64,000 nt of DNA from Cryptosporangium minutisporangium (GTDB taxonomy: Bacteria > Actinomycetota > Actinomycetes > Mycobacteriales > Cryptosporangiaceae), in the NCBI RefSeq assembly GCF_039536245.1, contig NZ_BAAAYN010000047.1, positions 140,105-204,104 on the forward strand, given 5' to 3'. The first letter of the stretch is position 1. Every line of letters begins with the position of its first letter. Of this stretch, positions 18,176 through 32,011 are shown in pieces. Both the position numbers and the translations under genes were made by a program. The notes beneath the pieces were generated by a model. That model did not search any database, was not told the DNA's origin, and saw only the letters and a program-made list of their open reading frames with translations.

Positions 18176-19900
18176 ATGCAACGCCGCGGATCTGTGCTCG
18201 GTATCGACTTCGGAACGGTGAACACGGTCGCGGCGCTCCGCCACGCCGACGGCCGCACCGAGATGTTGGTGTTCAACGGCTCGCCGCTGCTGCCGTCCGC
18301 GGTCCACTTCGGGCCCGCCGGGCAGTTCCTGACCGGCCGGGACGCCCAGCACGCCGCCCAGGTACGGCCTGAGGGCTGCGAACCGCACCCGAAGCGGCGG
18401 ATCGACGACGGCACGGTGGTGCTCGGTGGGCGCGAACTGCCGGTGACCCACCTCGTCGCTGCGGTGCTCGCTCGGGTGATGGACGAGGCGCGGCGGATCG
18501 CCGGAGAGGAGCCCGGCCACGTCGTCCTCACCTACCCCGCGACCTGGCACCAGCCCCGACAGGAGGTGCTGGAGCAGGCGGCGGTGCTCGCCGGGGTCCC
18601 CGTCCCCGTGCTGGTGCCGGCGCCGGTGGCCGCGGCCGCCAGTTTCCTGACGCTGACCCGCATCCCTCTCGACGACGGGCGCGGCGTCGTCGTCTACGAC
18701 GTCGGCAGCGGCACGCTCGATGCCACGGTCGTCCGGCGGACCGCGGGCAGGCTCGCGGTCGCCGCAGCGGAGCACGTCGCCGATCCAGACGGACCGGACA
18801 TCGACCCGACCGTCAGCGCGACGGACACCGCGGTGCGTGCCGCGGGCCTGCCACCGGCCGGGATCGCGGGAATCTTCCTGGTCGGCGACGTGCGCCGGAT
18901 GCCGCTCGCGGCCCCACTGCTACACCAGCGGTTCGGGATCGCGCCGACGGTCGCCGCGAACCCCGAGTTCGTGGTGGCGCAGGGCGCGGTCGCCGTCGAC
19001 CTGCTCAGCCCCACAGCCCCGGGCCCGGAGAACCCGGCCGGGACCCCCGTCCCGGGTCAGGTTCCGCACGCCTACCCGGCGAAGCCGTCCGGGCTGGGCG
19101 CGCCGGGGTTCCGACCACCGTCCTCGCGGAGGACCACCGCCGCCTGGACGGCCGCAGTGCTCGCGGCGACCACCGTGGTGGTGGTCCTGGTGTCCGTCCT
19201 GATCGTGCAGTTCGCCGGCGACGACGGAGGCACAGCCGACGCGGCGGGCACTCCGAGCGCCACCGAAGCCACGACCACTGCGAGGAGCCGTGTCCCGGCG
19301 TCCGGACCCACGAACTGCACCTATCTGGCCGCCGACGACAGCAACGGCAGGGTCAAGGAGGTCGGGCGGCCGCCGGCGACGGACGTCCCGACGACCGGGA
19401 CCCGCACCGCGACGATGGTGACGAGCCTCGGCACGATCGAGTTCACGATCGACCGGACTGCGGCGCCTTGCACCGCCAACAGCTTCGCGTACCTGGCCGG
19501 GAAGCGCTTCTACGACCGTACCTCGTGCCACCGGCTGGTGACGCAGACGATCTATGTGCTGCAGTGCGGAGATCCGTTCGGCGACAGCACCGGCGGCCCG
19601 AGCTACCGGTACGGCACCGAGAACCTCCCCACCGACCGGGAATCGCGGTACCCGGCCGGCACGGTCGCGATGGCGACGACGACGGAGCCGAACTCGGTCG
19701 GCAGCCAGTTCTTCATCGTCTACCAGGGCTTCGACGATGCCTTGCTGGATCCGCTATACACCGTGGTGGGCACGGTCACCAAAGGCCTGGACCTGATCCT
19801 GGAGGCCGCGGAGGCGGGCGTCGTGGAGCCTGGCGCGTTCGGCCCGGGTGACGGCAAGCCCAAGCGTCCCGTGGACGTCACCTCGCTGCGGGTGGCGTAG
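18176..19900 (+). CDS. Hsp70-like ATPase domain / TM / cyclophilin-type peptidyl-prolyl isomerase fusion
   Basis: 574 residues in three parts. Residues 7-275 are an Hsp70 nucleotide-binding fold: phosphate-1 GIDFGTVNTVA (9-19), phosphate-2 VYDVGSGTLDATVV (173-186), adenosine motif IFLVGDVRRMP (233-243). About 100 residues that normally lie between phosphate-2 and adenosine (most of subdomain IIB) are reduced to about 45. Residues 322-346 form a transmembrane helix after a Pro/Gly linker. Residues 405-574 are a cyclophilin: TSLGTIEFTIDR, SCHRLVTQ, LQCGDP, VGSQFFIVY. The topology puts the isomerase outside and the ATPase-like domain inside. No substrate-binding domain is present. It starts at ATG 18176 and is monocistronic. 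Confidence 0.88.
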   Translation: MQRRGSVLGIDFGTVNTVAALRHADGRTEMLVFNGSPLLPSAVHFGPAGQFLTGRDAQHAAQVRPEGCEPHPKRRIDDGTVVLGGRELPVTHLVAAVLARVMDEARRIAGEEPGHVVLTYPATWHQPRQEVLEQAAVLAGVPVPVLVPAPVAAAASFLTLTRIPLDDGRGVVVYDVGSGTLDATVVRRTAGRLAVAAAEHVADPDGPDIDPTVSATDTAVRAAGLPPAGIAGIFLVGDVRRMPLAAPLLHQRFGIAPTVAANPEFVVAQGAVAVDLLSPTAPGPENPAGTPVPGQVPHAYPAKPSGLGAPGFRPPSSRRTTAAWTAAVLAATTVVVVLVSVLIVQFAGDDGGTADAAGTPSATEATTTARSRVPASGPTNCTYLAADDSNGRVKEVGRPPATDVPTTGTRTATMVTSLGTIEFTIDRTAAPCTANSFAYLAGKRFYDRTSCHRLVTQTIYVLQCGDPFGDSTGGPSYRYGTENLPTDRESRYPAGTVAMATTTEPNSVGSQFFIVYQGFDDALLDPLYTVVGTVTKGLDLILEAAEAGVVEPGAFGPGDGKPKRPVDVTSLRVA

Positions 19901-22046: not shown

Positions 22047-22051
22047 GGCCC

Positions 22052-22495
22052 GTGTCCCGCCCCTACCGGGTGTACTTCGCGCGAGCGGTCGACGAGCTGT
22101 CGCGGCCGGCGGTCCTGGCTCAGGGCGCGACGCTGGCCGCGCGTCTGCGGCCGCTCGGCGCGGAGCTGGTCGATCCGGTCGCCGTCTGGGATCTGAGTCC
22201 GCTCGATCCCTCGCCGGGCGATCTCGTGGCCTCGGATCTCCGCACGCTGCGCACCTGCGACGCAGTCCTGATGGACATGACGATCCCGAACCGCAACTAC
22301 ATCGGTTGCGTCTGCGAGCTGACTTACGCGTACCTCTGGGAGATCCCGTCCGTTGTCTGGGTCGGCGACACCGGGTACGAACGACGACCGTGGCTGCGCT
22401 TCCACGCCACTGCAATCGTCCCGGACGAACACCGAGCGGTACAGGAGCTTGGCACGCTACTGCGGTCAGGTCGGCGGCCCCCGCCGACCCAGTAG
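22052..22495 (+). CDS. Nucleoside 2-deoxyribosyltransferase-like protein
   Basis: 147 residues. The opening YRVYFARAVDEL and the segment MDMTIPNRNYIGCVCELTYAY match the N-deoxyribosyltransferase superfamily, in which the glutamate of the CELTYA segment is the covalent nucleophile and the Asp/Asn before it bind the base. The family exchanges bases on deoxynucleosides, or hydrolyses nucleotides (DNPH1/RCL, MilB types). The GTG start lies 5 bp after the membrane protein's stop; the 3' end overlaps the convergent toroid gene by 30 bp. The substrate is unknown. Confidence 0.78.
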   Translation: MSRPYRVYFARAVDELSRPAVLAQGATLAARLRPLGAELVDPVAVWDLSPLDPSPGDLVASDLRTLRTCDAVLMDMTIPNRNYIGCVCELTYAYLWEIPSVVWVGDTGYERRPWLRFHATAIVPDEHRAVQELGTLLRSGRRPPPTQ

Positions 22496-23782
22496 CAGTT
22501 GAACGAAGAGCAGAAGCACCGGAAAGATCATGCTGAGCGCGTACTCGTGCCAGGCCAACCGCCCGAGCCAGACCAAGGCACCGCCGAGCAGCACTACGAC
22601 GCCGAGCAGTCCGACGGCCCATCGCCGCGCCAACCACCGGGCTCCGTCACCGATCGCTGCCCGGGCGAGCACCGCCGTGGCCGGCCGGTTCCGTCCTCGC
22701 TGCAGCAACACCGTGCTCGGAGACAGAACGCGCAGCACGTCCGTCGACCCGCCGGGGACGAGTCGGCGGACGTCCGCGAGCGCCTCGAGGAACGGCCACA
22801 CGGTCCACATCGACCGGCTCGCGACGCTGTCCCCGCCGGGCCACCGTCCGTCCAGGCTTTGGGTGGCGAGGATCGTCCGAACACTCTGCACGACGAGATC
22901 GAGCCGCACCCCGTCCGGCGCGCGGGTCAGCGCGGAGAGTGCATACGGAAGACCGGGATGCCACACCGTGCTCTGCCAGGTGAAACCCTTGACGTTGTCC
23001 TCCGCCAGCGACACGTTGTACTCCTCAGTCCTCGCGTCCTCGTCGTGGATGCGGCCAGTCTTCACGTTCCCGGCGAGCCAGGCGTATCCCGCCGCGAGTG
23101 CGTCGGTCACGTCCTCGCGCCGGCGCCGCAGCTGCAGGTCGGCGAGGGTCGTGAGCACGATCGCGGTATGGGTCACGGTCGGTGGTCCACCCGGCACCTC
23201 GCCCCACGCCCGGGCCCGGAGATCACGGCTCTGGAGCAACCACTCGACGCCGGACCGCACACCTGGGTCGAACGGCTCCGCAACCGTCAAGGCGCGGATC
23301 GCCATGGCCGTCAGCCAGATCCGGGAGGACTGCCCCCGGAACGATCCCCAGCCGCCGTCAGCGTTCTGATTGAAGAGCAGCCAGCGACCGGCACGGCGAA
23401 GGTCCGGACCGTCGGCCGCGAACGCGAGACCGGCCCGGTGCAGCAGCCACGTCACCAGGGCCGTCGCCTCAGTCACCGGTCGGCCGACGCTGGTGTTCAC
23501 CGCCCAGCCGCGGTCGAGCGTCGGATCTGCGGCCGTGATCTGACGTTCGCGGAGGAACGCGAGCGCAGCCGGGAGGGGGTCGAAGTCTCGCCCGAACACG
23601 AGGAAGGCGGCGAGCCCGGCTGCGGTCGCGGACGGTCCCGGCTGATCGGCGTCGAGCCGGTGATACCAACCGGCACTTCCTGGGCTGCTCCGGTACGTGT
23701 GCCGCAGCAGCCCGAGCGCGCGCTCCACGCAGGCGTCGACCTCGCCGAAGTCGAGAGTGGGTAAGCCTCCGCGATCACTCAC
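22466..23782 (-). CDS. Terpene-cyclase/prenyltransferase-like alpha-toroid with C-terminal membrane anchor
   Basis: 438 residues. Repeated helical pairs with QW-like motifs (NADGGWGSFRGQ near 143; SLDGRWPGGD near 317) indicate the alpha/alpha toroid of squalene-hopene cyclases and prenyltransferases, but the class II catalytic DxDD motif is absent and the size is about two-thirds of a full cyclase. Two C-terminal transmembrane helices (WAVGLLGVVVLLGGALVWLG; ALSMIFPVLLLFVQLLLG) would anchor it. The GTG start lies 37 bp after the methyltransferase stop, with AGGAG upstream. It is the last gene of a HIT-methyltransferase-toroid operon. A binding or scaffold role, or a non-canonical cyclase, is possible. 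Confidence 0.75.
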   Translation of the reverse strand: MSDRGGLPTLDFGEVDACVERALGLLRHTYRSSPGSAGWYHRLDADQPGPSATAAGLAAFLVFGRDFDPLPAALAFLRERQITAADPTLDRGWAVNTSVGRPVTEATALVTWLLHRAGLAFAADGPDLRRAGRWLLFNQNADGGWGSFRGQSSRIWLTAMAIRALTVAEPFDPGVRSGVEWLLQSRDLRARAWGEVPGGPPTVTHTAIVLTTLADLQLRRRREDVTDALAAGYAWLAGNVKTGRIHDEDARTEEYNVSLAEDNVKGFTWQSTVWHPGLPYALSALTRAPDGVRLDLVVQSVRTILATQSLDGRWPGGDSVASRSMWTVWPFLEALADVRRLVPGGSTDVLRVLSPSTVLLQRGRNRPATAVLARAAIGDGARWLARRWAVGLLGVVVLLGGALVWLGRLAWHEYALSMIFPVLLLFVQLLLGRRGPPT

Positions 23783-23818
23783 TCCACGGAGTGTCTCCTG
23801 TGCGGTGCGTGCTGGAGG

Positions 23819-24493
23819 TCAAAACGAGCGACGTGCGACCAGACGGAGGAAGTGGCTCTGCTCGGGGCTGGCGTACTGCCCGGAGTAGGAGTCGATACGG
23901 TCGATCGCCCAGTCGGCCAGCAGGTCCTTGAGTTCGTGCTCGGTGAAGAATCGTCGGATGCGGCCCTTACGCAACCACGTGTGATGCGCGAGCCGGTCTC
24001 CCTGGCCGCAGTACGGGTCGTCAACCGACTTGACGACGAGCACCAGCACGCCACCCGGCCGCAGCACACGGGCGGCCTCCAGGCAGATGGCCTGGGTGGT
24101 CGGCTCGTCGAAGTACTGGATCGCCAAATGGCTGAAGATCCCGTCGAAGGCCCGGTCCGCATAGGGCAGCGGCTCGACCAGGTCATGGCAGCGGACTCGG
24201 CCGTGCGCGTCCGAACCACCGACCCGTCGCAGCGCCTCCCGCGCCTGTCGGACCGCCACCGGCGAATAGTCCAGTCCGTGGGCATCGAGACCGCCCTGGG
24301 CAAAGGCGGCGACGTCATGGCCCTGACCGCAGCCGAGGTCCAGCACCCGGCGCGACGCAGACTCGGCGAGCAGGTCGAGGAAGACACGGCGGGACTCGCG
24401 GTGGCCCGGATCGTCTCCGGTCGCACCGCGCCGTGCGTGCCAGTCGTTCCAGAACGCGAGTTGATCCGGGAAGTGGACCGAGGTGTTAAGCAT
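23819..24493 (-). CDS. Class I SAM-dependent methyltransferase
   Basis: 224 residues. Motif I is VLDLGCGQGHDVA at 50-62, followed by the acidic loop GLDYSPVAVRQA, motif IV-like FDGIFSHLAIQYF and post-motif VLRPGGVLVLVVKS, the usual Rossmann methyltransferase order. Substrate not deducible. ATG 24493 is preceded by GAGGA with good spacing and starts 13 bp after the HIT-like gene stop, so the pair is co-transcribed. Longer upstream frames lie within the HIT gene and are rejected. Confidence 0.88.
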   Translation of the reverse strand: MLNTSVHFPDQLAFWNDWHARRGATGDDPGHRESRRVFLDLLAESASRRVLDLGCGQGHDVAAFAQGGLDAHGLDYSPVAVRQAREALRRVGGSDAHGRVRCHDLVEPLPYADRAFDGIFSHLAIQYFDEPTTQAICLEAARVLRPGGVLVLVVKSVDDPYCGQGDRLAHHTWLRKGRIRRFFTEHELKDLLADWAIDRIDSYSGQYASPEQSHFLRLVARRSF

Positions 24494-24506
24494 GTTCCTC
24501 AATCGA

Positions 24507-25190
24507 TCAGGCGCTCGACGCCAGCGTTGGCGGGGATGAACGCGGGGTGCCGCACGGTTCGGATTGAAGCCCCTCGTGGGTCTTACGCAGGTTTTCCCAT
24601 CCGGGACACACCGCGTAGTCCCATTCCTGCGGCCGCCCGAGTACATGAGCAATGCGACGACGGAAAAACTGGGAGACTCCGGGATCTGAAGCGAGACAGA
24701 CGGCTCCGCCGGGCTCCTGATACAGGAGATAACCCTCGGCGGAATCACCCGGGGCAGTATGCACCGCCTCAGCTAACGTCGGGTAACAATCCACAGGGAG
24801 TTCGAGCGCCGTGAATGAATAGTGGCCGGGAACTATGTGGACGTGCGAGTGCACCAAACAGGCCGACCGGCGCCGACACGCCTCCTCGCACGAACCGTGC
24901 TCGAAGAGCGTCGCCGGGCCGAGACAGTCCTCCACCCGACGCCGCACCTCGGTCACGAACTGCAGGAACGTGACCTTGTCCGGACTCGGCAGGCGACGCA
25001 CGGACGGCGCGTGCCGGGCCGGGGCAGCGAGTACGTAACCGGGCACCAACGACCCCACAGCCGCGATCGCCACCGCGGTACCGTCACGACGAAAAAGCGG
25101 CGTGTCGTACCAGGGAAGCGCCTCCCCCTCCTCGCAATAGGCCGCGCAGAACGGACAGTCGTCCAAAGTAGTGCGGTAGTCGATCTCCAT
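24507..25190 (-). CDS. HIT-like (histidine triad) nucleotide hydrolase/transferase
   Basis: 227 residues. An N-terminal CPFC (12-15) resembles the zinc pair of HINT/Fhit relatives; GYVLAAPARHAPSV (51-64) is the HIT strand-turn; and HSHVHIV (114-120) is the histidine triad HxHxHxx. The following segment (GHYSFTALELP) and about 100 further residues are not typical of small HIT proteins. Family members release AMP from aminoacyl-AMP, dinucleoside polyphosphates or adenylyl sulfate. ATG 25190 has GGGGG upstream. It is the first gene of the operon and downstream of cysNC on the same strand (200-bp gap). Base composition is lower in GC than its neighbours. Confidence 0.72.
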   Translation of the reverse strand: MEIDYRTTLDDCPFCAAYCEEGEALPWYDTPLFRRDGTAVAIAAVGSLVPGYVLAAPARHAPSVRRLPSPDKVTFLQFVTEVRRRVEDCLGPATLFEHGSCEEACRRRSACLVHSHVHIVPGHYSFTALELPVDCYPTLAEAVHTAPGDSAEGYLLYQEPGGAVCLASDPGVSQFFRRRIAHVLGRPQEWDYAVCPGWENLRKTHEGLQSEPCGTPRSSPPTLASSA

Positions 25191-25389
25191 CACAGCGGCC
25201 CCCACCGTGCGACGAGCATCCCTGCCGCAGCGCGCCACAATTTCGCTGCAAGCAATTACCGGAACGCACCGAGCGTAGCAGTCGGGTCGCTCGACGCAAT
25301 ATTCGCGGAAGATTGACCGTGGAATCGAACGCATGAACACAAAGTCGTGTCACTTTTCACAGTGCACACTCATCCGCTCGCCAGTCACG
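25191..25389 (-). promoter_or_regulatory. Probable promoter region of the HIT operon
   Basis: This 199-bp gap after cysNC is clearly AT-richer than its surroundings (about half A/T at 25321-25380). On the minus strand TTGCGT and TACGCT stand 16 bp apart around 25268-25300, a plausible sigma-70-like pair. A short frame continues upstream of the HIT start but has no family similarity. Confidence 0.35.
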
Positions 25390-27294
25390 CTATTCAGGTA
25401 GCCCGGATGGCGGAGTCACCAGAAGAGCGGCGACGAGGGCGGCCATCGTCGTCGGATCGCCGTCGGACGGGCGGAGCACCAGGTCCGGTGACTCCGGCGG
25501 CTCGTAGGGCGCGTCAACGCCGGTCAAGCCGGGCTCGCCGCGCGCGTAGAGCCCCTTCGGATCGCGCGCCGCACAGACGTCGACCGGGGTGTCCACGAAC
25601 ACCTCGACGAACGGCAGGCCGGCGGCCCGGTGCCCCGCCCGCACCGCGTCCCGGTCGGCGCGGTACGGACTCACCAGCGATACCACGGCCACCGTGCCGG
25701 CGTCCGCGAACAGCCTGGCGACCTCGCCCACCCGGCGCACGTTCTCGGCCCGGTCGGCCGGGGTGAAGCCCAGGTCGGCACAGAGCCCGTGCCGCAGGTT
25801 GTCCCCGTCGAGCAGGTAGGCGGGGCGCCCGGCGGCGACCAGGCGCCGCTCCAGCTCGACCGCGACCGACGACTTCCCCGACGCCGGCAGTCCGGTGAGC
25901 CACACGGTGGCTCCGCGCGATTCACGTTCGGCGCGTGTCACCCCGGAGGCGTGCCACGTCACCGCAGGCGATGTTGTCACCGTCGGCGATGTCACCGAGG
26001 GGGACCGGGCCGGCACCGCGGCGGACGATGCGGGCAGGGGCGGAGCCGCCGGTCCGGTGAGCATCCCGGCCGCGACGGTCTCGTTCGTCACCTCGTCGAC
26101 CAGGATGAAGCCGCCGGTCGCCCGGTTGCGCCGGTACGGGTCGAACGCCAGCGGCTGCTGCGTGTGCAGACGCACCCGGCCGATCTGGTTGAGCCGCAGG
26201 TCGGTCGCGGCCGGATCCCGATGCAGCGTGTTCACGTCCAAGCGGTACTCCAATGCGCTGACCTGCGCCCGCGTCTGGAGGGTGGTGTGCCGCAGGACGT
26301 ACCGGCCACCGACCGTCAGCGCGCTGCGCTCGGCGAACCAGCAGAGCATCGCGTCGAGGTCAGACCCCACGTGCGGCCGGTTCCCCGGCCGGCACAGCAG
26401 GTCACCCCGGCCGACGTCGAGGTCGTCGGCGAGTTCCAGCGTGACCGCCTGGGGCGCGAACGCTTCCTCCAGCCGGATGCCGCCCGGCGCCCAGATCGCC
26501 CGGACGGTGGTCGCGAACCCGCTCGGTAGCGCGACGACCTCGTCCCCCGCCCGCATGACCCCGCCGCCGAGCGTGCCGGAATAACCGCGGAAGTCCCCGG
26601 AGCGGATCACGTACTGCACCGGGAACCGGACGTCGATCAGGTTCCGGTCGGACGCGACGTGGACCTGCTCCAGGTGGTGCAGCAGCGGCAACCCTTCGTA
26701 CCAGGGCATGTTCACGCTGCGGTGGACGACGTTGTCGCCGTGCAGTGCGGCGACCGGGATGACGCTGAGGTCGTGCACGTCCAGCCGGGCGGCGAAGCGC
26801 TCGAAGTCGGCGCTGATCTCGTCGAACCGCTCGGCGGAGAACCCGACCAGGTCCATCTTGTTGACGCAGAGCACCACGTGCGGGACGCCGAGCAGGCTGG
26901 CCAGGAACGCGTGCCGCCGCGACTGCTCGGTCAGCCCCTTCTCCGCGTCCACCAGGATCAGCGCCAGGTCCGCGTTGGACGCCCCGGTCACCATGTTCCG
27001 GGTGTACTGGACGTGGCCCGGCGTGTCGGCGACGACGAACGAGCGCTTCGGCGTCGCGAAGTAGCGGTAGGCGACGTCGATCGTGATGCCCTGCTCGCGC
27101 TCCGCCCGCAACCCGTCGGTGAGCAGCGCGAGGTTGAGTTCCTCACCGCGGTCGCGGCTGGCCTGCTCGACCGCGGCGAGCTGGTCGGTGAACGTCGACT
27201 TCGAGTCGTAGAGCAGCCGGCCGACCAGCGTGGACTTGCCGTCGTCGACGCTGCCGGCGGTGGCGATGCGCAGGGTCCTGGGTGCGCGCGACAT
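25390..27294 (-). CDS. cysNC: Bifunctional sulfate adenylyltransferase large subunit / adenylylsulfate kinase
   Basis: 634 residues. Residues 1-430 are a CysN GTPase: P-loop GSVDDGKST, switch DVAYRYFATPKRSF, G3 DTPGHVQY, G4 NKMD. A Ser/Thr/Pro-rich linker (about 425-450, with repeated TSPxVT) leads to a CysC kinase: P-loop GLPASGKSS, DGDNLRHGLCADLGF, and the DPKGLYARG motif. CysN drives APS formation with CysD; CysC phosphorylates APS to PAPS, the donor for sulfotransferases. The ATG overlaps the cysD stop (TGATG). A sulfotransferase gene lies about 3.5 kb away in the divergent unit. Confidence 0.95.
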   Translation of the reverse strand: MSRAPRTLRIATAGSVDDGKSTLVGRLLYDSKSTFTDQLAAVEQASRDRGEELNLALLTDGLRAEREQGITIDVAYRYFATPKRSFVVADTPGHVQYTRNMVTGASNADLALILVDAEKGLTEQSRRHAFLASLLGVPHVVLCVNKMDLVGFSAERFDEISADFERFAARLDVHDLSVIPVAALHGDNVVHRSVNMPWYEGLPLLHHLEQVHVASDRNLIDVRFPVQYVIRSGDFRGYSGTLGGGVMRAGDEVVALPSGFATTVRAIWAPGGIRLEEAFAPQAVTLELADDLDVGRGDLLCRPGNRPHVGSDLDAMLCWFAERSALTVGGRYVLRHTTLQTRAQVSALEYRLDVNTLHRDPAATDLRLNQIGRVRLHTQQPLAFDPYRRNRATGGFILVDEVTNETVAAGMLTGPAAPPLPASSAAVPARSPSVTSPTVTTSPAVTWHASGVTRAERESRGATVWLTGLPASGKSSVAVELERRLVAAGRPAYLLDGDNLRHGLCADLGFTPADRAENVRRVGEVARLFADAGTVAVVSLVSPYRADRDAVRAGHRAAGLPFVEVFVDTPVDVCAARDPKGLYARGEPGLTGVDAPYEPPESPDLVLRPSDGDPTTMAALVAALLVTPPSGLPE

Positions 27295-28208
27295 CAGAAG
27301 TACCCCTCCCGCTTGCGGTCTTCCATGCCGGCCGCGGAGATCCGGTCGTCGGCCCTGGTCGCGCCGCGCTCGGTGATCCGGCTGGCGGCGATCTCGGCCA
27401 CCACGTCGTCCGGGGTGGCGGCCGTCGACGTGACGCAGCCGGTGCAGGTGGCGTCGCCGACCGTGCGGAACCGGACCGTGGCCTCGGCGGGCTCCTCGCC
27501 GTCGAGCAGCGTCAGGAACCGGGTGTGCGCGAGCAGCATGCCGTCCCGGGCGACGACCGGCCGGCGGTGCGCGTAGTAGAGCGACGGCAGCGCGATGCCC
27601 TCGTCCCGGATGTAGCGCCAGATGTCCAGCTCGGTCCAGTTCGACAGCGGGAACACCCGGATGTGCTCGCCGGGGCGGTGGCGGCCGTTGTAGAGATTCC
27701 ACAGCTCCGGGCGCTGCCCGCGCGGGTCCCACTGACCGAACCGGTCGCGGAAGCTGAACACCCGCTCCTTCGCCCGCGCTTTCTCCTCGTCCCGCCGGGC
27801 GCCACCGAACACCGCGTCGAACCGGTGCTCGGCGATCGTCCGCAGCAGGGTCGTCGTCTGCAGGCGGTTGCGGCTGGCGGCCGGTCCGTGTTCCTCGACC
27901 GCGGCTCCGCTGTCGATGTCGTCCTGGACCTTCCCGACGATCAACCGGACGCCGAGCCGCTGCACGGTCTCGTCCCGGAAGGCGATGACCTCGTCGAAGT
28001 TGTGGCCGGTGTCGACGTGCAGGACACCGAACGGCAGCGGAGCGGGCGAGAAGGCCTTCACCGCGAGGTGCAGCATCACGACGGAGTCCTTGCCCCCGGA
28101 GAACAGCAGCACCGGACGCTCGAACGTCGCCGCGACCTCACGGACGATGTGGACCGACTCGGCCTCCAGCGCCTCCAGGTGCGTCATCTCATACGTTCCG
28201 GTCGTCAT
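27294..28208 (-). CDS. cysD: Sulfate adenylyltransferase subunit 2
   Basis: 304 residues, normal for CysD. The PP-loop is LLFSGGKDSVVMLHLA near residue 36, followed by HVDTGHNFDEV, VFGGARRDEEKARAKER and the C-terminal RFRTVGDATCTGCV, MEDRKREGYF. It binds ATP and sulfate to make adenylyl sulfate together with CysN. ATG 28208 is chosen because GGAGGAG lies immediately upstream at ideal spacing. It is the first gene of the leftward unit cysD-cysNC; the divergent promoter region carries a KstR-like palindrome at 28242-28255. Confidence 0.95.
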   Translation of the reverse strand: MTTGTYEMTHLEALEAESVHIVREVAATFERPVLLFSGGKDSVVMLHLAVKAFSPAPLPFGVLHVDTGHNFDEVIAFRDETVQRLGVRLIVGKVQDDIDSGAAVEEHGPAASRNRLQTTTLLRTIAEHRFDAVFGGARRDEEKARAKERVFSFRDRFGQWDPRGQRPELWNLYNGRHRPGEHIRVFPLSNWTELDIWRYIRDEGIALPSLYYAHRRPVVARDGMLLAHTRFLTLLDGEEPAEATVRFRTVGDATCTGCVTSTAATPDDVVAEIAASRITERGATRADDRISAAGMEDRKREGYF

Positions 28209-28241
28209 GGTCTCCTCCGGGAAGAGCGTGGCCTTCCGAAT

Positions 28242-28255
28242 TAGAACAGGTTCTT
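28242..28255. promoter_or_regulatory. KstR-like operator (TAGAACAGGTTCTT)
   Basis: The core AAC-N2-GTT inside an AGAAC/GTTCT inverted repeat matches the KstR consensus TnnAACnnGTTnnA except for the last base. It sits in the 81-bp divergent region between cysD and the SnoaL-like gene, so one regulator could control both directions. Confidence 0.55.
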
Positions 28256-28289
28256 GTGCTGAGGTGAAGTAAGCGGGAGGCTGTGGGGC

Positions 28290-28796
28290 ATGGAGAGCCG
28301 CACACTCGACTACCTGCTCACGCTGGAGGACCTCCGCCAGCTGAAGTACCGCTACCTGCGTAGCGTCGACCACAAGTTGTGGGACGAGCTAGCCGACACG
28401 CTGACCGAGGACGCGGTCGCGGACTACGGCACGCCCGCGATGGGCGGTGACAACCTATTACTGACCGGCCGGACCGCGATCGTGGAGTTCATGCGGAAGA
28501 ACCTCGGCCCCGGGCTGATCAGCGTTCACCTGGCGGGGCAGCCCGAGCTCTCGGTGAACGGCGATCAAGCGACCGGCACCTGGGGGTTCTCCGACCTGAT
28601 CATCGCGCCGGAGTACAAGGTCGTCATCCAGGGCGCCGCCTTCTACGAGGACACCTACCGGCGCGGCGACGACGGAGTGTGGCGGATCAGCCGCACCGGC
28701 TACACCCGCACCTACGAAGCGTCGATGTCACTCGACGACCTGCCGAGCTTCCGGCTGACCGCGAACCGCTGGGCGGACGCGACAGCGAACCCGTGA
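28290..28796 (+). CDS. SnoaL-like (NTF2-fold) protein
   Basis: 168 residues of the SnoaL_4/ketosteroid-isomerase-like fold. An N-terminal helix pair (LTLEDLRQLKYRYLRSVDHKL) is followed by DWDEL-like acidic residues, DAVADYGTPAMGG, and a curved beta-sheet ending VWRISRTGYTRTYE. The fold serves hydratases, isomerases and dehydratases acting on hydrophobic substrates, but no catalytic dyad can be assigned with confidence. It is the first gene downstream of the KstR-like box; a second such box follows before the DUF1214 gene. Confidence 0.8.
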   Translation: MESRTLDYLLTLEDLRQLKYRYLRSVDHKLWDELADTLTEDAVADYGTPAMGGDNLLLTGRTAIVEFMRKNLGPGLISVHLAGQPELSVNGDQATGTWGFSDLIIAPEYKVVIQGAAFYEDTYRRGDDGVWRISRTGYTRTYEASMSLDDLPSFRLTANRWADATANP

Positions 28797-28811
28797 ACGT
28801 TGACGGCTGAT

Positions 28812-28825
28812 CAGAACGCGTTCTA
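28812..28825. promoter_or_regulatory. KstR-like operator (CAGAACGCGTTCTA)
   Basis: A perfect AGAACGCGTTCT palindrome with AAC-N2-GTT core, 31 bp upstream of the DUF1214 gene start. It matches TnnAACnnGTTnnA except for the first base. It is the second such site within 600 bp. Confidence 0.55.
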
Positions 28826-28855
28826 GTGTTCGTCCACCTCGTGGAAGGGGGTCCG

Positions 28856-30025
28856 GTGCTGACGCAGCCGTTTGCGGACGCCATCGCCGAAGCCGAGAAG
28901 ATCATCGCCGACGCGCCGCACGTCCGTACCGAGCAGGACCTGCTCGAGGGGTACGAGTACCTGGCCGGAAGCATCAAGGCGTCCCTGCACATGGCGTGGG
29001 CGTACGACCGCGACTTCCCGTTCTTCGCGGAGTCGACCGGGCCGTATCACAAGATGGGCCTGGACAATCCGGACACGCTCTACTTCCACGCGAACCTCCG
29101 GGACGACGCCGAGTACGTCGTCACCGGGCGGCGGGGCACCACCCGCGACCTGAGCTTCCAGGTGCTGTCCGGTGACTACTCCCCCGCCGAGGTGCCGGAC
29201 AGCCCGGCCGCGTTCGACGACCGGTCGATCGACATCGCCGACGACGGGACGTTCGAGCTGCGGTTCGGTCCGGAGCCGGCGGCCGGGCGGCGCAACTACG
29301 TGACGCTGGCCAAGGGCGCCTCGATGCTCGCCGTCCGCGAGGTCTACAGCGACTGGGGCGCCGAGGAACGCGGGGTGCTGAGCATCCGCCGGGCCGGCCT
29401 GGCCGGCGCCGCACCCACCCCGCCCACCGCCGAGCAGATGCGCAAGCGGTACCAGGTGGCCGGGAAGATGCTGCTCTCCCGGTTACGCACCTGGCTGCAG
29501 TTCCCGGAGTGGTTCTACCTGAAGCTGCCGGTCAACACGATGACCGAGCCCCGGCTCACGCCGGGCGGCCTGTCCACCCAGTACTCCGCGGTCGGGCACT
29601 ACGAGCTTCCCGACGACGTCGCGATGGTGGTCACCGTCCCGAAAGCCGACGTGCCGTACCAGGGAATGCAGCTCGGGAGCCGGTGGTACGTCTCGCTCGA
29701 CTACGTCAACCACCAGACGAGCCTCACCGCCGATCAGGCCAAGGTGGACCCGGACGGACGGATCCGGTTCGTGATCAGCGAGCGAAATCCCGGGCTGACG
29801 AACTGGCTGGAGCGCACCGGCCACGACCGCGGCTTCGTCCAGATCCGCTGGCAGCGGGTGTCGCAGGCACTCACCGCCGAGGACGGCCCGACCGTCGACC
29901 TGATTCCGGTGGACGAGCTGCCGGAGCGGCTGCCGTTCCACGCCGACCAGCGCATCACGCCGACCGACTGGGCCGCGCGGATCGCGGCCCGGCAGGACGG
30001 GTTCGCCGTCAGGATGCTCGGATGA
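28856..30025 (+). CDS. DUF1214-family protein
   Basis: 389 residues. The C-terminal part carries the DUF1214 pattern (SRWYVSLDYVNHQTSL, later RNPGLTNWLERTGHDRGFVQIRWQ), preceded by a larger N-terminal region with YHKMGLDNPDTLYFHA. I recall the same layout in the M. tuberculosis protein Rv3531c beside cholesterol genes. The GTG at 28856 is chosen because GGAAGGGGG stands just upstream; an earlier GTG at 28826 abuts the operator. Biochemical function unknown. The stop overlaps the next gene's ATG (ATGA). Confidence 0.75.
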   Translation: MLTQPFADAIAEAEKIIADAPHVRTEQDLLEGYEYLAGSIKASLHMAWAYDRDFPFFAESTGPYHKMGLDNPDTLYFHANLRDDAEYVVTGRRGTTRDLSFQVLSGDYSPAEVPDSPAAFDDRSIDIADDGTFELRFGPEPAAGRRNYVTLAKGASMLAVREVYSDWGAEERGVLSIRRAGLAGAAPTPPTAEQMRKRYQVAGKMLLSRLRTWLQFPEWFYLKLPVNTMTEPRLTPGGLSTQYSAVGHYELPDDVAMVVTVPKADVPYQGMQLGSRWYVSLDYVNHQTSLTADQAKVDPDGRIRFVISERNPGLTNWLERTGHDRGFVQIRWQRVSQALTAEDGPTVDLIPVDELPERLPFHADQRITPTDWAARIAARQDGFAVRMLG

Positions 30026-30804
30026 CCGGCCTCCTGACCGACAAGGTCGTCGTCGTCTCCGGAGTCGGGCCGGGCCTGGGCCGGTCGATCGCTCTGCGCA
30101 GCGCGGCGGCCGGTGCGGACGTCGTCCTGGCCGCCCGCACCGAGGCCCGACTGGTCGAGGTCGCGAAGGAAGTCACCGCGCTGGGGCGACGGGCGGTGAC
30201 GTTCCGGACCGACGTGCGCTCGGAGTCCGACACCGAGGCGCTGGTCGAAGGTGCGCTGACGGCGTTCGGGCGGGTCGACGCGTTGGTGAACAACGCGTTC
30301 GCGATCCCACCGCTGGAAGATCTGCTCGACGTCGACCTGGACGGGATCCGGCGTGGCTTCGAGACCAATGTGCTGGCCGCGCTCGCGCTCACCCGGCGGT
30401 TCCTCCCAGCGCTGCAGGACAGCGCGGGCGCGGTCGTCATGATCAACTCGGCCGTCCTGCGGCACTCCCGCCGCACGTTCGGCCCCTACAAGATGGCCAA
30501 GGCCAGCCTGCTGGCACTGGCGCAGAACCTCGCCACCGAGCTCGGCCCACGCGGTGTCCGGGTCAACTCGGTGGCCCCCGGTTACATCTGGGCCGACAAC
30601 CTGAAGTGGTATTTCAACTACCTCGCCGAGCAGCGCGGCGTCACCCAGCAGGACATCTACGACGAGACCGCGGCCGACCTCGATCTGCGCCGGCTGCCCG
30701 AGCCGGACGAGATCGCGGACGCGGTCGTCTTCCTCGCCTCGCCGATGGCCCGCGGCATCACCGGCCAGTGCCTCGACGTCAACTGCGGCGAGTTCCACCA
30801 CTGA
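30022..30804 (+). CDS. Short-chain dehydrogenase/reductase
   Basis: 260 residues. The cofactor-binding loop is VVSGVGPGLGRSIA, with an NNAFAIPP segment, catalytic Ser in INSAVLRH and YKMAK (Tyr-x3-Lys). The glycine loop GVGPGLG is less common than TGxxxGIG. It overlaps the DUF1214 gene by 4 bp and precedes the sulfotransferase gene by 46 bp. In M. tuberculosis an SDR (Rv3530c, from memory) occupies the same position between a DUF1214-like and a sulfotransferase-like gene, supporting a role in sterol or lipid metabolism. Confidence 0.88.
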   Translation: MTGLLTDKVVVVSGVGPGLGRSIALRSAAAGADVVLAARTEARLVEVAKEVTALGRRAVTFRTDVRSESDTEALVEGALTAFGRVDALVNNAFAIPPLEDLLDVDLDGIRRGFETNVLAALALTRRFLPALQDSAGAVVMINSAVLRHSRRTFGPYKMAKASLLALAQNLATELGPRGVRVNSVAPGYIWADNLKWYFNYLAEQRGVTQQDIYDETAADLDLRRLPEPDEIADAVVFLASPMARGITGQCLDVNCGEFHH

Positions 30805-30850
30805 CCACGTTGGCCGGCGGCCAACCACTGACCTCAACGAGGAGGCACCC

Positions 30851-32011
30851 ATGGTCGGCCGCGAACGGGTCGGCACCGTCGAGGATCTGCACGCCTCGGC
30901 CACGAAAATCACCGGCCTCACCGACTTCGGCGACGACGACTACCAGGAGGGCTTGGCCGTCCTGCTGGAGTCGTACGCCGCGGATGCCGCGCTGACGCCG
31001 CTCGGCAACGCGGTGAAGCGGTCGTTCCTCCGGGGCGCGCTGGTCGCCCGGCTGCTGAGTGAGACGGCGTGGAAGCAGTACCCGGAGTACGCGGCCGTAC
31101 CGATCGAGCGGCCGATCTTCGTCACCGGTCTGCCCCGCACCGGCACCACCGCACTCCACCGGCTACTCACCGCCGACCCGGCCCACCAAGGCCTCGAGAT
31201 GTGGCTGACCGAGGCGCCGCAGCCCCGCCCGCCCCGTGACACCTGGGACGACAACCCGCTCTACCAGCGGCTGCAGTCCGCCTTCGAGCAGCACCACGTC
31301 GAGCACCCGGAGTTCATGGGCCTGCACTACATGTCCGCCGACCAGGTGGAGGAGTGCTGGCAGCTGCTCCGGCAGTCGATGGAGTCGATCTCGTTCGAGT
31401 GCCTGGCGCACCTCCCCCGGTACTCGGCCTGGCTGGCGCAGCGCGACTGGCTCGCGGCCTACCAGCGGCACCGGCGCAACCTGCAGTTGATCGGAGTGCG
31501 CGACGCGGGCAAGCGCTGGGTGCTGAAGAACCCGAGCCACCTGTTCGCGCTCGACGCGCTGTTCGCCGCGTACCCGGACGCGCTGGTGATCCAGACCCAC
31601 CGCGCGCCGCGCACCGGGATGGCGTCGATGTGCAGCCTCGCGCAGGCGGCCAGCGAGGGCTGGTCGACGGTGTTCCGGGGTGAGGTGGTCGGCCACGACC
31701 AGCTCGAGCTCTGGTCGCGCGGGCTCGACCGGTTCCGCGCCGACCGGACGAAGTACGACGCGGCGCAGTTCTACGACGTCGAGTACGAAGACTTCGTCGC
31801 CGACCCGATCGGCACCGCCGAGCGGGTGTACACGCACTTCGGCCTCGATCTGACCGACGACGCCCGCGCCGCGATGGCGGCGCTGCACGCGGAGTCCAAG
31901 ACCGGCGCCCGCAAACCCGCGCACCGATACACGCTCGACGACTTCGGCCTCACCCCGGAGCAGGTCGACGAGCGGTTCCACGACTACCTCGCCACGCCCC
32001 GAAGCTCGTAG
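30851..32011 (+). CDS. Sulfotransferase-family protein
   Basis: 386 residues. The 5'-phosphosulfate loop is VTGLPRTGTTALHRLL (91-106), and the later segment RWVLKNPSHLFALDALF is typical of the Sulfotransfer_3/Stf-like family; the 3'-phosphate region is around THRAPRTGMASMCSLA. It would move sulfate from PAPS to an acceptor hydroxyl. The acceptor is unknown, but neighbouring SDR, DUF1214 and SnoaL genes and the KstR-like boxes suggest a sterol or lipid. GAGGAGGC lies upstream of ATG 30851. It is the last gene of the rightward unit; a hairpin follows. Confidence 0.88.
   Translation: MVGRERVGTVEDLHASATKITGLTDFGDDDYQEGLAVLLESYAADAALTPLGNAVKRSFLRGALVARLLSETAWKQYPEYAAVPIERPIFVTGLPRTGTTALHRLLTADPAHQGLEMWLTEAPQPRPPRDTWDDNPLYQRLQSAFEQHHVEHPEFMGLHYMSADQVEECWQLLRQSMESISFECLAHLPRYSAWLAQRDWLAAYQRHRRNLQLIGVRDAGKRWVLKNPSHLFALDALFAAYPDALVIQTHRAPRTGMASMCSLAQAASEGWSTVFRGEVVGHDQLELWSRGLDRFRADRTKYDAAQFYDVEYEDFVADPIGTAERVYTHFGLDLTDDARAAMAALHAESKTGARKPAHRYTLDDFGLTPEQVDERFHDYLATPRSS

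Follow-up and report, generated by a model that had tools for sequence, protein, structure and literature searches.

A recurring actinobacterial gene cassette built around a HIT-like protein and a membrane-anchored alpha-toroid, with a mosaic copy in Cryptosporangium minutisporangium

Proteins of the HIT superfamily work through a nucleotidyl-histidine intermediate, from which the nucleoside monophosphate (NMP) is then hydrolysed or transferred, and in squalene-hopene cyclase (SHC) the proton donor is the middle aspartate of the DxDD motif. Some known HIT enzymes use adenylylsulfate (APS) and phosphoramidates (PMC8704414, PMC7072326). Here we describe a locus of the soil actinobacterium Cryptosporangium minutisporangium in which relatives of both families are found together. 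It lies within a stretch of 64,000 nucleotides (contig NZ_BAAAYN010000047.1, positions 140,105 to 204,104), hereafter the window, and consists of a HIT-like gene, a gene for a class I S-adenosylmethionine (SAM)-dependent methyltransferase (MTase) and a gene for an alpha/alpha-toroid protein with two C-terminal transmembrane (TM) helices. The original prediction, made from the letters alone, had seen three leftward genes for which it knew no named pathway; all three open reading frames (ORFs) are indeed on the minus strand, and the literature on this gene combination gave nothing relevant, with no known product or named cluster found in the searches made (the sole paper naming SCO2321 has no relation to the cassette family). 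We favour, with a probability of roughly 0.4, the reading that the trio belongs to a cassette that recurs in actinobacteria and would act as an orphan nucleotide-dependent tailoring pathway. The HIT protein and the membrane-anchored toroid form the core of this cassette, and they are usually joined by a NUDIX hydrolase and by a kinase (for small molecules or nucleotides), a SAM MTase or both.

Recurrence of the HIT-toroid pair

Searching 84,980 species genomes of bacteria and archaea for the HIT family gave 43 loci, the neighbours of which were typed with one hidden Markov model (HMM) each and tallied. A TM-anchored toroid was found beside the HIT gene in 37 of the 43, and every one of these 37 also carried a NUDIX hydrolase, together with a PfkB or CMP-kinase-like kinase in 33 cases and an MTase in five. 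The toroids are of two types, A (that of the window) and B. By far the most frequent arrangement (29 loci) combines HIT, type-A toroid, NUDIX and PfkB and comes mostly from Actinomadura, where its position, between aroE and infC, is fixed; three Nonomuraea among the 29 have it at a different site. A single locus has the type-A set without PfkB. Type B appears with NUDIX and a CMP-kinase-like kinase in four loci (Herbidospora, a metagenome-assembled Frankia genome, Amycolatopsis and Lentzea), two of which include an MTase, and with NUDIX and an MTase in three more (two Nonomuraea and Thermocatellispora). All five genes are present in Amycolatopsis rifamycinica (NUDIX-kinase-HIT-toroid-MTase). 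The remaining six HIT loci, more distant, are without a toroid. Since the Actinomadura site represents one vertical lineage the 43 loci are not independent, and the separate contexts, including the window, number about seven.

The association also holds in the opposite direction. When 395 genomes of the same class were searched for toroids, full-length cassette-type toroids appeared in only four of them, and the HIT gene was adjacent in all four: two with type B, and two with a full-length type A (G000, which is the window genome, and G382). Co-occurrence in both directions (37/43 HIT loci and 4/4 toroid genomes) rules out a chance neighbourhood, and a real functional association of HIT and toroid beyond the window genome is well supported; the genes of the trio very probably act jointly in one nucleotide-linked reaction. 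The expectation that the three families would be found together elsewhere is borne out for HIT and toroid, but the trio complete with its MTase is rarer, with five loci besides the window. Searches of the PDB with single PfkB and kinase sequences returned nothing useful.

A mosaic copy inserted in the genus

The window HIT groups with those of Herbidospora, Frankia, Lentzea and Amycolatopsis, all from type-B cassettes (tree support 100/99), and the window toroid groups with the type A of Actinomadura (100/100). Since the two proteins fall with different subtypes, the subtypes have been exchanged while the pair was retained, and this swapping is the best evidence that HIT and toroid very probably work together.

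Comparison with congeners indicates how the copy arrived. The CysNC and DUF6585 genes abut in the congener G001 with nothing between them, and at the same site the window holds 3.3 kb with a nucleoside deoxyribosyltransferase-like (NDT-like) gene, the toroid, the MTase and the HIT gene (Table 1). The GC content at third codon positions (GC3) lies between 0.73 and 0.84 in these four inserted genes and between 0.93 and 0.95 in those neighbours that were measured. A second congener, G002 (L025 8058-9786), keeps a decayed cassette in which the HIT gene has suffered an internal deletion and a frameshift, no MTase is left, the toroid stops short of its TM helices and only a remnant of the NDT-like gene persists. 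The insertion relative to G001, the low GC3 and the decay in G002 together make the cassette a dispensable, horizontally moved unit in the genus, and the window trio is a reduced, mosaic, horizontally acquired version of it. Of the hallmarks of insertion looked for, neither a tRNA in the window nor long direct repeats on either side of the segment were found.

A patchy distribution and the exchange of subtypes would also be expected of a module for stress response or phage defence, where a nucleotide signal would be produced or destroyed by HIT and NUDIX and the toroid in the membrane would serve as sensor or effector. The combination of nucleotide-acting enzymes with a membrane-anchored partner would suit such a role, as would the related HIT genes that adjoin an AAA ATPase with a QW-like N terminus and a MazG-like pyrophosphohydrolase (see below). 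However, PADLOC has no model for the HIT, toroid or NDT-like proteins and matched the MTase only partially (to mads_2, in the methyltransferase region only), no HIT relative was found in phage records or viral contigs, and the Actinomadura cassette sits fixed at a housekeeping site (aroE-infC), unlike a defence island. We therefore regard this role, which had been raised in the original prediction, as improbable. The toroid was not found in the plasmid collection.

Table 1. Features of the window locus and of related loci (positions are those of the window unless a locus is named).
Feature	Coordinates	Strand	Remarks
HIT-like gene	24507..25190	-	ATG 25190, 227 aa; CxxC, H60, EHG, HxHxH, C-terminal SQxxRR...W extension
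Class I SAM-dependent MTase gene	23819..24493	-	ATG 24493, 224 aa; Methyltransf_25 match
GAGGA, ribosome-binding-site-like, ahead of MTase ATG	24496..24500	-	read off the sequence
Alpha/alpha-toroid (type A) gene	22466..23782	-	GTG 23782, 438 aa, two C-terminal TM helices, Glu105 at SHC Asp376 position
NDT-like gene	22052..22495	+	PF05014 E=0.004, below cut-off
Inserted segment, not in congener G001	22047..25389	n/a	comparison with congeners; decayed version in G002
CysD and CysN/CysC (3'-phosphoadenosine 5'-phosphosulfate, PAPS, synthesis)	25390..28373	-	upstream of trio, same strand; genus-level neighbour, outside cassette
GalT-like protein (PF01087, DUF4931_N) beside sulfotransferase, conserved	L074 9398-10330, L076 9422-10354, L077 9361-10281		Nonomuraea/Thermocatellispora cassettes

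The genes of the trio are closely spaced. The gap between HIT and MTase is 13 bp, as had been stated, but that between MTase and toroid is 36 bp rather than 37, and the ribosome-binding site described ahead of the MTase can be recognised as GAGGA. The 5' region, which had been called AT-rich, is so in relative terms only (59% GC against about 70%). A search for a consensus promoter found none, although such a search is uninformative for high-GC actinobacteria. The NDT-like gene is convergent with the trio, as had been described, and overlaps the 3' end of the toroid gene by 30 bp. It lies inside the same insertion and has an equally low GC3; any functional tie to the trio is putative. Its presence in the insertion, and the fact that the soluble enzymes except the MTase are all of nucleotide-handling types, could suggest nucleotide house-cleaning or salvage, with NUDIX, HIT, kinase and NDT-like proteins degrading or recycling abnormal nucleotides. 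This would leave the obligatory TM toroid, the MTase and the sulfotransferase and GalT-like partners unexplained, and the distribution of the cassette is patchy, so that we think it a rather unlikely function.

Elsewhere in the window, a single ORF of 574 aa (18176-19900) joins an Hsp70-like ATPase region to a cyclophilin-type peptidyl-prolyl isomerase, an unusual domain pairing.

The proteins and the chemistry they suggest

The window HIT gave no Pfam or NCBIfam match as a single sequence, and the family profile against the PDB had its best match to HIT structures (E 1.5e-11). The triad HSHVHIV (His114/116/118), reported as intact in the original prediction, is indeed so and is accompanied by CxxC (12/15) and His60; in an alignment with 27 relatives the three histidines of HxHxH are invariant. 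The MTase contains a SAM-binding Rossmann domain (67.9 bits with Methyltransf_25, whose cut-off is 27), and its motif I, also said to be intact, reads LDLGCGQG, that of a class I enzyme. Its best-scoring relatives are the cassette MTases of other genera, by a narrow margin.

The toroid is the least conventional of the three. It passes the SQHop_cyclase_C cut-off barely (26.8 bits against 26.1). The structure prediction that had been proposed for it produced an alpha/alpha-toroid with a mean pLDDT of 81.7 (AlphaFold2, AF2), for which the best Foldseek matches were the drimenyl-diphosphate synthase SsDMS (E 2e-7) and SHC, with a TM-score of about 0.47 over the query. Two hydrophobic C-terminal segments identified by hydropathy (about 388-407 and 413-432) fall inside the long helices with which the model ends. 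When the toroid family is aligned by HMMER with SHC and SsDMS, PV[TV]EATA (PVTEATA in the window) stands opposite PDVDDTA of SHC, and the window toroid has no DxDD (or DxDTT) motif at the aligned position. The QW-like motifs, the lack of DxDD and the two C-terminal TM helices had all been described correctly, with the addition that type A keeps one acid: the Glu that takes the place of the proton donor Asp376 of SHC is invariant in 22/22 type-A sequences, the flanking acids being gone. Type-B toroids have no acid at the equivalent position and no Pfam match. Their sequence homology with type A is weak (hhalign probability 21%, and a global hhalign run without a match), and the AF2 models of both types show the same architecture, with a beta-hairpin insert and two terminal TM helices. 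This shared architecture and the shared slot in the cassette suggest that the two types are related.

The invariant Glu and the Foldseek matches might point to the type-A toroid as an active, non-canonical class II terpenoid cyclase, with Glu105 protonating a polyprenyl substrate and the HIT and MTase modifying the terpenoid or a nucleotide-linked form of it. However, DxDD is gone along with the acids that flank it, the same slot is filled in other cassettes by a type-B toroid with no acid at all there, the TM-scores are modest, and no recurring prenyl diphosphate synthase was noticed in the cassettes annotated. Active cyclisation seems to us doubtful on balance, and the earlier description as terpene-cyclase-like is best applied to the fold and not to the catalytic motif, any catalysis being putative.

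A nucleotide-linked substrate, as had been suggested, fits because the partners in the related cassettes are NUDIX hydrolases, CMP-kinase-like or PfkB kinases, MTases and GalT-like proteins. From HIT chemistry and these gene surroundings we infer that the tailoring cassette may handle a nucleotidylated intermediate. The surroundings of HIT relatives, which encode enzymes of nucleotide, adenylation and sulfur-activation chemistry and are described below, lend support to this. A kinase-primed or adenylylated intermediate would undergo nucleotidyl-enzyme chemistry at the middle histidine of HIT, with the NMP transferred or released; NUDIX, where present, would split a pyrophosphate and the MTase would cap the product. 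The toroid, with its C-terminal hairpin anchored in the membrane and its barrel cytosolic, would bind a hydrophobic or membrane-borne partner. The window copy would rely on host enzymes or carry out later steps only, since neither the locus nor the genome provides a cassette NUDIX and the locus has no kinase.

Sulfur metabolism is a further hint. CysD-CysNC lie directly upstream of the window trio and a sulfotransferase gene 5.7 kb from it; GalT-like and sulfotransferase genes are found inside the Nonomuraea/Thermocatellispora cassettes, and two Acidobacteriota have an ATP sulfurylase near tandem HIT genes (one of them with a sulfotransferase too). Within 25390-32011, CysD-CysNC are divergent from SnoaL, DUF1214, SDR and Sulfotransfer_3 genes (PF13469, 210 bits), and this PAPS/sulfotransferase cluster is kept in 4/4 congeners examined. 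Fhit and Hint4 act on APS (PMC8704414), and the HIT could likewise take AMP from the APS made by the adjacent ATP sulfurylase, the whole being part of the neighbouring sulfation cluster. Nevertheless, G001 and G003 have the sulfation cluster without the cassette, and the loci of Actinomadura, Amycolatopsis, Lentzea, Herbidospora and Frankia showed no sulfur genes in the neighbourhood of HIT, which makes such a dependence decidedly improbable. Because the sulfation cluster is older in the genus and present without the cassette, the link to sulfur is a lead only.

Several further HIT neighbourhoods were observed. A plasmid operon of Rhizobium leguminosarum (L150 3727-11224) encodes phosphoribosyltransferase-like, SDR, RidA, PfkB, cysteine desulfurase, HIT, TrpD-like, MTase and PhyH-like proteins and is an orphan biosynthetic operon. 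Two Streptomyces plasmids (L153 3449-9741, L154 3425-9737) have consecutive genes for a dCTP-deaminase-like protein, HIT, an uncharacterised protein and a cysteine desulfurase; in their vicinity are a MazG-like gene and an Exo_endo_phos-methyltransferase fusion, and one of the plasmids also has a phage portal gene close by. In two actinobacteria (L030 7066-10668, L031 6544-10206) the HIT gene is flanked by AMP-ligase-like genes, named by eye with no family search. Parabacteroides and Pyrinomonadaceae (L152 4978-8060, L075 4171-7767) have an AAA ATPase with a QW-motif N terminus, HIT and then a PRA-PH/MazG-like pyrophosphohydrolase, an order that resembles toroid-HIT-NUDIX; in Parabacteroides the set adjoins ThyX and DHFR. 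The AAA-fused QW proteins were rejected as toroid homologues, as they share the QW motif only (hhalign probability 5%), and remain a lead. A wider nucleotide-chemistry system, based on an obligatory pair of HIT and an alpha-toroid that is either membrane-tethered or (in Bacteroidota and Acidobacteriota) fused to an AAA ATPase, with exchangeable pyrophosphohydrolase (NUDIX or MazG-like), kinase and MTase, is unlikely but deserves some weight; if real, it would amount to a novel type of membrane-coupled nucleotidyl-transfer pathway, or a signal system, spread over several phyla.

Comparison with known systems

Several observations count against a tailoring pathway carried by the window cassette. 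The locus itself contains neither a NUDIX nor a kinase. In the rest of the genome no NUDIX is of cassette grade, the highest score being 47.5 bits where members of the cassettes exceed 180; the cassette kinases were not searched for there. The weakest cassette MTase leads the unlinked MTases by only about 1 bit, and the tree support of the window MTase is weak (51/73). The sulfur link is post hoc and missing from most cassettes, and the decay in G002 means that the cassette is dispensable there.

Three loosely annotated genes become one testable unit, with a HIT enzyme that in about 40 actinobacterial genomes is next to a membrane toroid having the terpene-cyclase fold but not the terpene-cyclase motif. 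The toroid belongs to no curated functional family. With subtype swapping and a minimal set of only three genes, the system is compact enough for heterologous expression and metabolomics, and may uncover a new role for the alpha-toroid fold.

The cassette consists of known folds in a combination for which no name was found. Nucleoside sulfamate clusters (nucleocidin, ascamycin) resemble it in combining PAPS genes, a sulfotransferase and an MTase in actinobacterial nucleoside pathways (PMC10946740), but the window cassette is without a sulfotransferase of its own, and the nucleocidin paper (PMC10946740) nowhere uses the terms HIT, HINT or Nudix. With class II terpene cyclases (SHC, SsDMS) the window toroid shares the alpha/alpha-toroid fold, the QW motif and the Glu at the catalytic Asp position, and it differs from them by the absence of DxDD, the two C-terminal TM helices and the beta-hairpin insert; no prenyl-chain genes were noticed. 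The MTase resembles class I SAM methyltransferases (PF13649/PF08241) in its motif I and in a fold-level match well over the cut-off, and among them is nearest, marginally, to the MTases of the same cassettes elsewhere. Finally, the window HIT has the HxHxH triad, the CxxC and the upstream His of the HIT superfamily (Hint, Fhit, Ap4A phosphorylase, GalT; PF01230), but stands apart from it in being below Pfam detection, in the EHG motif ahead of the triad, in a C-terminal extension of about 80 aa (SQxxRR...W) and in the linkage of its gene to a TM toroid.

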